Of a stretch of 34,215 nt of DNA, positions 27,655 through 28,485 are shown one piece after another. How positions within the stretch are numbered: position 1 is the first letter of the stretch; every line of letters starts with the position of its first letter. Origin of the DNA: a bacterium (GTDB lineage: Bacteria; Edwardsbacteria; AC1; EtOH8); NCBI GenBank assembly GCA_030655055.1, contig JAURWH010000186.1, forward strand, positions 1 through 34,215, in the 5' to 3' direction. The translations under genes were made by a program, and so were the position numbers. The notes under the pieces are model-generated. The model saw nothing but the letters and a program-made list of their open reading frames with translations, was not told the DNA's origin and did no database searches.

Positions 27655-27748
27655 TGGCGGAGGGGCAGGGATTTGAACCCTGGATACAGCTTTAAGGCCG
27701 TATAACGGTTTAGCAAACCGTCGCCTTCGGCCACTCGGCCACCCCTCC
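27655..27748 (-). tRNA. tRNA-Ser (anticodon GCU)
   Basis: On the minus strand the acceptor arms GGAGGGG and CCCCTCC, the D arm GGCCGAGTGGCCGAAGGC, an anticodon loop reading TTGCTAA, the long variable arm of class II tRNAs and the T arm CAGGGTTCAAATCCCTG are all present. The discriminator is G and the CCA end is encoded (27655-27657). It reads AGC and AGU serine codons. Confidence 0.96.
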
Positions 27749-27775: not shown

Positions 27776-27835
27776 GTCTGGCCCGCCAGACGAGGCCTCA
27801 TGTTTGCCCGGTTTTTATATGGCGCAGTCTGGCGG
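27776..27835. repeat. Short inverted repeats between the tRNA-Ser genes
   Basis: CCGCCAGAC (27783-27791) is inverted at 27827-27835, and GTCTGG/CCAGAC (27776-27781, 27786-27791) forms a smaller nested hairpin. They border the damaged tRNA copy that begins at 27830. Confidence 0.5.
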
Positions 27836-27910
27836 AAGCGAGAGGATTCTCCGCCTGCGGCGGATCCGCCGTCGCTTGGCCAGTCCGAATTCCTGCCGGC
27901 GGAGAACCCC
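27830..27910 (-). pseudogene. 3' fragment of tRNA-Ser(UGA), split in the T loop by a 54-nt insert
   Basis: Bases 27830-27849 are identical to the last 20 nt of the intact tRNA-Ser(UGA), including CCA (27945-27964). Bases 27904-27910 (GAACCCC) continue the tRNA match. Between them lies a 54-nt insert (27850-27903); removing it restores the tRNA sequence GAGGATTC-GAACCCC exactly. Beyond 27910 the similarity ends in a hairpin (27904-27936). Confidence 0.75.
27850..27903. repeat. 54-nt palindromic insert in a tRNA T loop
   Basis: The insert begins TCCGCCTGCGGCGGA and ends GGCGGA, so its ends are inverted repeats (TCCGCC/GGCGGA). The CCGCC-NNN-GGCGG opening is shared with the two 35-nt inserts at 28312-28346 and 28366-28400. 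Confidence 0.7.
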
Positions 27911-27936
27911 GCAGATTTCATCTGCACCAGGGGTTC
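27904..27936. repeat. Hairpin carrying an inverted copy of the tRNA T arm
   Basis: GAACCCC-GCAGAT and ATCTGC-(ACCA)-GGGGTTC form a long hairpin just past the CCA end of tRNA-Ser(UGA). The 14-nt word at 27924-27937 is the exact inverse of 27964-27977 in the tRNA, so the trailer could pair with the T arm of the precursor. Confidence 0.6.
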
Positions 27937-27944
27937 GTCAATAA

Positions 27945-28032
27945 TGGCGGAAGCGAGAGGATTCGAACCCCTGGTGCCTTTCAGCACAACGGTTTTCAAG
28001 ACCGCCGCCATCGACCACTCGGCCACGCTTCC
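27945..28032 (-). tRNA. tRNA-Ser (anticodon UGA)
   Basis: On the minus strand the acceptor arms GGAAGCG and CGCTTCC pair, the D arm is GGCCGAGTGGTCGATGGC, the anticodon loop reads CTTGAAA (anticodon TGA), a long variable arm follows and the T arm is AGGGGTTCGAATCCTCT. Discriminator G and encoded CCA are present (27945-27948). It starts only 4 bp past the GIY-YIG stop codon, so both are probably on one transcript. Partial copies of this gene lie on both sides. Confidence 0.96.
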
Positions 28033-28036
28033 GGAG

Positions 28037-28294
28037 TTAGTTAGCCTTTTCTTCCTTTAAAATCAATCTTTTAAAGGCTTCTCCACCCTTATAGCTTTTT
28101 ATCTGCAACTCCCGACGATATGCAGCCTGTTTCGTTTCGTGGATCTCGCTATACAACAGAACAAATGGACCTTTGTTTCTTAGAGACCTGGTTTTCCCCG
28201 CGCAATGTTCTTCTAACCTTCGTACAATATCAGCTGTGTGGCCGATGTAGTACCTCCCATTGCCTTGACATTTTATCACATAGGTATAATACAT
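28037..28294 (-). CDS. Small GIY-YIG nuclease domain protein
   Basis: An 85-aa stand-alone GIY-YIG protein (MYYTYVIKCQ...). The GIY-like tyrosine lies in YTYV, the YIG motif is Y16-I17-G18 in RYYIGHT, the catalytic arginine is R25 or R26 in RRLEEH, and the metal-binding glutamate is E62 in YRRELQIK. Length matches the minimal YhbQ/UvrC-N-like class. Its coding sequence is visibly less GC-rich than its neighbours. It is placed between a 5' fragment of tRNA-Ser(UGA), which ends about 11 bp before its ATG, and an intact tRNA-Ser(UGA), which begins 4 bp after its stop. No Shine-Dalgarno sequence is seen. A role as a tRNA-targeting mobile endonuclease is inference; relatives are mostly uncharacterised. 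Confidence 0.88.
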   Translation of the reverse strand: MYYTYVIKCQGNGRYYIGHTADIVRRLEEHCAGKTRSLRNKGPFVLLYSEIHETKQAAYRRELQIKSYKGGEAFKRLILKEEKAN

Positions 28295-28311
28295 TTAACT
28301 TTACAGGTTTT

Positions 28312-28346
28312 TGCCGCCGTTGGCGACACCCCGCCACAGGCGGTGG
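28312..28346. repeat. 35-nt palindromic insert, copy A (anticodon loop)
   Basis: This 35-nt GC-rich element holds two small hairpins (CCGCC-GTT-GGCG and CCGCC-ACA-GGCGG) and ends GCGGTGG. It aligns over its whole length with copy B at 28366-28400 (same ends, central ACCCCGC). It interrupts the tRNA copy between the second and third anticodon bases. Confidence 0.7.
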
Positions 28347-28365
28347 CAAGACCGCCGCCATCGAC

Positions 28366-28400
28366 TCACCGCCAAAGGCGGGACCCCGCTGCTGCGGTGG
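28366..28400. repeat. 35-nt palindromic insert, copy B (D loop)
   Basis: The element starts TCACCGCC and ends GCGGTGG, giving CACCGC/GCGGTG terminal inverted repeats, with internal CCGCC-AAA-GGCGG. Removing it joins the two tRNA pieces without a missing or extra base. Confidence 0.75.
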
Positions 28401-28485
28401 CACTCGGCCACGCTTCCCGTGAACTTACCCTTATTTTATCACTTAAAATACTGGCCTGTCAATCACTTTTTACGGGCCGGCTGAA

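Follow-up and report, generated by a model that had tools for sequence, protein, structure and literature searches.

Small GIY-YIG Nuclease Genes with a Duplicated tRNA Half Recur beside Bacterial tRNA Genes and Are Probably Minimal Homing Cassettes

A family of small GIY-YIG nuclease genes recurs beside many different tRNA genes in many bacteria and is thus general rather than a local oddity. In the window (the whole 34,215-nucleotide stretch of DNA analyzed here), one member lies between a leftover 5' part of tRNA-Ser(UGA) and an intact copy of that tRNA. Our data establish this arrangement and its generality, a same-strand bias, occupied and empty alleles at the same site, protein lineages that follow the tRNA isotype, purifying selection on the nuclease, and the status of the intact tRNA as the sole full-length copy in the genomes checked. 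We consider it likely, with a probability of about 0.66, that gene and duplicated half form a minimal, free-standing cassette that homes into tRNA genes and leaves a rebuilt tRNA behind; cleavage, homing, and import of the new half rest on inference.

RESULTS

Architecture of the tRNA-Ser(UGA) locus

Read 5' to 3' on the minus strand, the locus consists of a promoter, an interrupted tRNA 5' part, the GIY-YIG gene, an intact tRNA-Ser(UGA), and a tRNA 3' remnant. The individual features are as follows.

28433..28462, minus strand: sigma-70-like promoter TTGACA-N18-TAAAAT (11/12 matches), directly 5' of the tRNA remnant
28401..28417, minus strand: leftover tRNA-Ser(UGA) 5' part, nt 1-17, matching the intact tRNA exactly
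28366..28400, minus strand: hairpin insert of 35 nt within the leftover tRNA's D-loop (folding z -2.25)
28347..28365, minus strand: leftover tRNA-Ser(UGA), nt 18-36 (19/19 identical)
28312..28346, minus strand: hairpin insert of 35 nt within the leftover tRNA's anticodon loop (folding z -2.30)
28306..28311, minus strand: leftover tRNA-Ser(UGA), nt 37-42 (AAAACC, assigned by sequence)
28037..28294, minus strand: GIY-YIG nuclease gene, 85 aa, single domain (PF01541, E 1.2e-17)
27945..28032, minus strand: intact tRNA-Ser(UGA) (ARAGORN; Rfam 56.4 bits), starting 4 bp after the GIY-YIG stop
27904..27910, minus strand: GGGGTTC from the T-arm of the 3' remnant; pairs with 27936-27930 as the 3' arm of a hairpin
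27850..27903, minus strand: twin-hairpin insert of 54 nt within the 3' remnant's T-loop (folding z -1.42)
27830..27849, minus strand: tRNA-Ser(UGA) 3' remnant GAATCCTCTCGCTTCCGCCA, nt 69-88 (20-nt exact copy)
27655..27748, minus strand: tRNA-Ser(GCU), neighbor gene (ARAGORN)

The leftover 5' part (28417-28306) amounts to 42 tRNA nucleotides split by two 35-nt inserts; the GIY-YIG gene runs from its ATG at 28294, 11 bp further on, to the end of its stop codon at 28037. The original prediction, made from sequence alone, had named a 42-nt tRNA 5' part, an 85-aa GIY-YIG gene after about 11 bp, an intact tRNA after a further 4 bp, and a 3' fragment, and this description held to the base. Its claim that the cassette lacks an integrase held as well, the insert containing the GIY-YIG ORF only. 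The exact copies of 19 and 20 nt (scores of 19 and 20) are not due to chance, as shuffled sequences reached at most 11 and 7, respectively. All three inserts contain, or can form, two adjacent short hairpins, and an insert of the same kind as the one in the anticodon loop is present at tRNA-Tyr in L029, L028, and L016. The intact tRNA-Ser(UGA) is the sole full-length match in the 2.37-Mb genome assembly of the window; this and the other tRNA copy counts rest on DNA searches. Neighboring genes are of housekeeping types (flavin-reductase-like, UvrD/PD-(D/E)XK helicase-nuclease, and pyruvate:ferredoxin oxidoreductase), and the Ser(UGA)-Ser(GCU) tRNA pair is conserved, without a GIY-YIG gene, in the relative G001. 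Shuffled sequences contain a mean of 1.0 sites like the promoter, which is weak evidence alone and counts only with comparative evidence. The same promoter-tRNA layout is found at empty alleles of G001, G005, and G009, and the element, sigma-70-like by sequence, likely occupies the expected place of the original tRNA promoter.

The original prediction, which had listed the 3' fragment as part of the arrangement, needs refinement here. The remnant is probably a separate, GIY-independent event, because the relative G005 has such a remnant at the same tRNA without a GIY-YIG gene (L068) and because other tRNAs of the window's genome have such remnants with no GIY-YIG gene adjoining. The twin-hairpin structure of the window's remnant has GIY-less counterparts in L068, L002, L003, and L007.

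GIY-less hairpin arrays ending in a duplicate of the last ~20 nt of the tRNA were observed directly after several tRNAs, namely, Ala(CGC, UGC, GGC), Ser(CGA), Ser(UGA), and Gln(UUG), at contigs C56, C128, C110, and C238 of the window's genome (L003, L005, L007, and L002, respectively), in G005 (L068), and in G008 (L248). At L003 the duplicate occurs twice in tandem. These arrays might be a non-autonomous relative or a scar. As a further observation, a repeat, GACTRCGYCATATAA..GGCAAGAGRCTTCGTCTGGCRRGCCAGA, lies immediately 3' of tRNA genes in the window (27829-27775) and in L067, L002, L244, and L246; its three best pattern sites in the window's genome (0 or 1 mismatch; C186, C223, and C238) are all beside tRNAs, and a close pair in C128 is likewise tRNA adjacent.

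The nuclease family adjoins tRNA genes on the same strand

Homologs were gathered on protein similarity alone, and tRNA proximity was therefore not selected for. A tRNA was found within 260 bp in 20 of 21 loci from GTDB contigs, the nearest one always on the same strand. Among homologs scoring at least 60 bits, 107 of 146 had a same-strand tRNA or tmRNA within 150 bp and none had one on the opposite strand; the control of other ORFs in the same loci gave 86 of 492 near a tRNA, with a ratio of 54 same to 32 opposite strand. Only 4 of 39 distant homologs (<60 bits) were near a tRNA. An independent sample of genomes across the domain was scored once the rule was fixed: 28 of 40 homologs (≥70 bits) were tRNA adjacent, with 0 on the opposite strand, and 59 of the 386 genomes had a match at E ≤ 1e-16, a number that counts profile matches and not proven cassettes. 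The original prediction would have been refuted had such homologs never lain next to tRNA genes, which is not the case. A point against the cassette reading is that about a quarter of the homologs scoring at least 60 bits have no tRNA within 150 bp.

GIY-YIG genes were also seen some 120 to 250 bp downstream of tmRNA genes (L144, L183, and L180), with two tmRNA cases within the enlarged set, and the target range may include tmRNA. The window's own genome holds further GIY-YIG genes, one before tRNA-Phe with a 26-nt exact 5' copy (C150, L013) and one after tRNA-Ser(GGA), located in a 336-codon open frame (C111, L012).

One half of the adjoining tRNA is duplicated beyond the gene

Where the GIY-YIG gene precedes the tRNA, a 5' copy of the same tRNA was present on the far side of the gene in 47 of 74 loci, against 12 of 2,030 when tRNAs of another isotype served as probes. 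Where the gene follows the tRNA, a 3' copy lay beyond it in 15 of 32 loci, against 35 of 2,030 with other-isotype probes. The corresponding values in the independent set were 13/16 for 5' copies and 6/12 for 3' copies. At L022, halves comprising nt 1-35 and 36-85 flank the GIY-YIG gene and the intact tRNA-Tyr without a mismatch, and a DNA search returned one near-full-length tRNA-Tyr match in each of ten CPR genomes. Several tRNA halves per locus occur at L015, L018, L213, and L217, possibly a trace of repeated insertion rounds.

Leftover and intact copies are mostly identical, so that import from elsewhere is not demonstrated. The two differ in the acceptor stem at a few loci, most clearly at L017 and also at L154 and L027. 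At L017 (~2500-2980), the leftover tRNA-Gly has the acceptor GCGGAGT/ACTCCGC and the intact tRNA-Gly has GCGGGAT/ATCCCGC; this mismatch is the best hint that an intact copy may have been imported.

Leftover copies are interrupted by hairpins

Of 56 leftover 5' copies, 42 show tRNA sequence that breaks off, gives way to a GC-rich insert, and then resumes, and 32 of these 42 inserts fold better than shuffled sequences (z < -2). Most interruptions fall in the D-loop or take the place of, or divide, the anticodon arm; some fall in the T-loop. Palindrome density is about fivefold higher in leftover tRNA than in other intergenic DNA (9.06 versus 1.92 per kb). Hairpin stems are conserved, with variable loops and stem sequences, and at L128 the upstream and downstream copies hold different, equally perfect hairpins. 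The role of the hairpins can only be conjectured: (i) they might destroy the target site in the leftover copy, (ii) they might provide a DNA structure used by the nuclease, or (iii) they might be parasites resembling double-hairpin elements that settle in freed tRNA copies. Template switching could conceivably keep the palindromes perfect with no need for selection. We rejected the reading of leftover fragment ends as cut sites; the ends are the points at which hairpins interrupt the tRNA copy.

Sister species carry occupied and empty alleles

The tRNA-Gln(UUG) upstream of prs is occupied as 5' copy - GIY - intact tRNA in G004, G005, and G007. In G003, G006, and G009 the site holds one clean tRNA only; G008 has the tRNA with a GIY-less hairpin-bearing 3' copy. 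The tRNA-Gln(CUG) is occupied in G007, where it exemplifies decay of the leftover, and in G008, and is clean in G005 and G009. Its promoter (TTGACA..TATAAT) lies 5' of the leftover copy when the site is occupied and 5' of the tRNA when the site is clean. Clean empty alleles lack both the GIY-YIG gene and the hairpins. In occupied alleles, the leftover 5' part stands behind the native promoter and the complete tRNA after the nuclease gene, as the original prediction had proposed; the absence of empty sites in close relatives, which would have refuted it, is ruled out by both tRNA-Gln sites. G005, G007, G008, and G009 belong to the same genus, and the patterns {G005, G007} and {G007, G008} cannot both be placed on one tree of these four genomes without extra gains or losses.

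Within the window's genus, a GIY-YIG gene is present at tRNA-Ser(CGA) in G001 and G002, its order relative to the leftover differing between them, and the window's genome has a leftover 5' copy without the gene at this tRNA. At tRNA-Ser(UGA), the gene is present in the window's genome and absent from G001, whose copy of this tRNA is an identical match of 88 nt. A point against the cassette reading is that the genes flanking the relatives' empty alleles of the window's own site differ.

A conserved block, TTGACAGTRGGTCGCCGCG..ACATCTCCRTGCGGCT..AAGCTTGAC..CCTGTTGTCA, followed by a T-run, was noted upstream of tRNA-Gln(UUG)/prs in L230, L232, L243, and L246. It may be a structured RNA with a terminator, which it resembles; a search of L230 returned no Rfam match at gathering score for it.

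The protein is a single-domain GIY-YIG nuclease with isotype-following lineages

The protein meets the test for membership in the GIY-YIG superfamily, having the domain, the catalytic Tyr, Tyr, Arg, and Glu, and a matching fold; Y5, Y16, R26, H30, and E62 are invariant among 20 homologs. The fold predicted by modeling (mean pLDDT 83.7) is nearest to UPF0213, Slx1, and I-TevI, and the nearest solved relatives by sequence are the UPF0213-type 1zg2 (E 1.3e-12) and 1ywl. NCBI named families returned only a subthreshold match to a group I intron endonuclease, and PHROG only weak homing-endonuclease matches. With 85 aa and one Pfam domain, the protein has no extra DNA-binding domain after GIY-YIG, which speaks against homing. 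The dN/dS values in seven pairs range from 0.06 to 0.19, and the nuclease is therefore under purifying selection.

The protein tree requires 55 changes of tRNA isotype, against 78.9 after shuffling (minimum, 71), and the nearest neighbor shares the isotype in 53 of 107 cases, against 8.9 expected. This signal is partly explicable by vertical descent at one locus. Isotype clustering also joins distant hosts, for example, Ignavibacteria (L021) and Bacteroidetes (L025) at tRNA-Ser(GCU), and the tree unites the tRNA-Phe protein of the window's genome (L013), whose gene precedes the tRNA, with the tRNA-Phe proteins of G007 and G008, whose genes follow it. The closest relative of the window's protein is that of G001 at tRNA-Ser(CGA). 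Small CPR genomes contain up to 16 copies of the family each.

DISCUSSION

Proposed mechanism

In our preferred reading, the 85-aa protein would most likely be an endonuclease that cuts a particular tRNA gene, and repair of the break would install the nuclease gene together with a second copy of one tRNA half; the resulting arrangement is shown and the route is inferred. One complete tRNA always survives, as is seen directly at the loci, either as old 5' part - GIY - intact tRNA or in the mirror form, intact tRNA - GIY - old 3' part, with tRNA sequence presumably serving as the homology arm for homing. The leftover part would no longer make tRNA, and its decay is observed, for example, at the tRNA-Gln(CUG) of G007. 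The cassette is oriented as the tRNA is, and would probably be transcribed from the original tRNA promoter. Two marks of a free-standing homing endonuclease are met, in that the gene lies outside introns and inteins, beside a tRNA gene inferred to be its target, and in that it is present or absent at one site among close relatives. Against this stands that the intact tRNA retains the presumed target site, and how the donor escapes self-cutting is unexplained.

The original prediction was that an element had entered the tRNA gene and brought its own 5' portion, leaving the old 5' part behind. This is supported with refinements: some loci show the mirror order (tRNA - GIY - 3' copy), leftover copies have hairpins in tRNA loops, and neither cleavage nor horizontal delivery of the new half goes beyond inference, a local duplication made by repair not being excluded.

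Alternative explanations

The most serious rival, which we nevertheless regard as unlikely, is cutting and duplication without cargo: the gene arrives otherwise, the nuclease breaks the tRNA gene, and error-prone repair duplicates a half locally in tandem, so that the half is not borne by the element. The general identity of leftover and intact copies fits this view, as do a duplication in G005 and G007 that takes in ~10 bp of native 5' flank ahead of the tRNA, GIY-less half-duplications with the same hairpins (L002, L003, L005, L007, L068, and L248), and the several halves at L015, L018, L213, and L217. However, it leaves unexplained, on its own, how the gene reached different tRNAs in isotype-following lineages, and the leftover at L017 is a different tRNA-Gly from the intact one. 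It is also improbable that the hairpin-bearing remnants are the real mobile or structural unit, with the GIY-YIG protein a helper or hitchhiker that processes cruciform or branched DNA. Its support comes from the roughly fivefold hairpin density in leftover tRNA, with 42 of 56 copies resuming after an insert and 32 inserts at z < -2, from the preservation of stems while loops and stem sequence change, from a nuclease fold that resembles the branched-DNA nuclease Slx1 as well as I-TevI, and from the existence of GIY-less hairpin copies. Yet hairpin sequence and position differ widely between loci, the constant pair being GIY-YIG gene and tRNA, and there are clean empty alleles with neither hairpins nor the gene.

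Strict same-strand adjacency and purifying selection would also suit a housekeeping RNA nuclease that matures, trims, or degrades the adjoining tRNA. This is very unlikely, as the gene is missing from the same tRNA in sister species that retain that tRNA, leftover tRNA halves are present, and one protein family serves many isotypes. Chance, in the form of a tandemly duplicated, decaying tRNA that happens to enclose an unrelated gene, had been the alternative named in the original prediction. Decayed copies do occur, but more than 100 loci repeat the arrangement with one gene family, always on the same strand; as a general explanation chance is refuted statistically and all but excluded.

Three further candidates were rejected. 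(i) A group I or II intron or other known RNA was dismissed: Rfam gave nothing beyond tRNA worth keeping, with no intron family in the window and only tRNA reaching its gathering score at 12 loci. (ii) Phage or plasmid cargo was dismissed for lack of close relatives in either: a search with the family alignment found no close homolog in IMG/VR viral contigs, none was found in plasmids, and the three phage matches are weak (35-40% identical), so that no vector is known, a point that also weighs against the cassette reading. (iii) An integrase-made island was dismissed since there is no integrase and the 5' duplications are unlike 3'-end attachment.

Significance

If the homing-cassette reading is true, a nuclease persists in essential bacterial tRNA genes by way of an intact copy, achieving in DNA what self-splicing achieves in RNA. 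The occurrence of small GIY-YIG genes next to tRNAs across many bacteria would then be accounted for, and partial tRNA genes would have one identified origin. The family would also offer very small nucleases that are apparently specific for tRNA genes, and it would point to a widespread, little-noticed kind of selfish DNA. The empty and occupied alleles of sister species make it directly testable. A bolder version, towards which we lean by a narrow margin, is that of an undescribed but widespread class of very simple selfish elements in bacteria, each an ~80-codon nuclease gene plus a duplicated half-tRNA, with isotype-following lineages (many isotypes and possibly tmRNA) and up to 16 copies per small CPR genome. 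Such elements would time and again enter essential tRNA genes that exist as single copies, restore these genes at the DNA level, and leave behind tRNA scars marked by hairpins.

Comparison with known systems

The usual refuges of homing endonucleases are introns, inteins, and the spaces between phage genes. The original prediction could not name a tRNA-restoring minimal cassette from the literature; our search of open-access literature found SegB and the fungal mORFs and no bacterial tRNA-rebuilding GIY-YIG cassette, which is not proof of novelty. SegB is a free-standing GIY-YIG homing endonuclease of T-even phages, often located beside phage tRNA genes (PMC13096335). It is likewise a tRNA-associated GIY-YIG gene, implicated in cutting tRNA-containing DNA, and recombination copies tRNA segments; however, it is phage borne, and we noted in that article no duplicated half that rebuilds an interrupted tRNA. 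The UPF0213 (YhbQ-type) proteins are the closest solved relatives by sequence and fold and share the single small domain, whereas homologs below 60 bits, which we take to be mostly UPF0213-like housekeeping proteins, seldom have a tRNA nearby (4/39). Group I introns with homing endonucleases enter bacterial tRNA genes without destroying their function (PMC3984707); here, in contrast, no intron RNA was found in the window or at 12 loci, and function is kept by a second DNA copy and not by splicing. Double-hairpin or repetitive hairpin-forming elements of mitochondrial DNA (PMC2800124, citing Paquin et al. 2000) are similar in being short palindromic units that often come as tandem pairs and whose stems are better conserved than their loops, but the hairpins described here are concentrated in leftover tRNA copies beside bacterial GIY-YIG genes.

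The mORFs of fungal mitochondria replace the end of atp6, atp9, cox2, or nad3 (Allomyces and Glomus; PMC3630166). An endonuclease ORF (GIY-YIG in Glomus atp9) lies between the old and new copies of the gene end, the gene remains whole, and the old end is left behind. Our loci meet the mORF criterion of an endonuclease ORF between copies of part of an intact host gene (47/74 plus 15/32 loci). They differ in that mORFs affect the C-terminal end of organelle protein genes, whereas here either half, mostly the 5' one, of bacterial tRNA genes is concerned, and in the single-domain nuclease and the hairpins in the leftover. The cassettes are thus likely a variant of free-standing homing elements, with DNA cleavage inferred, that is new by its architecture and population pattern.
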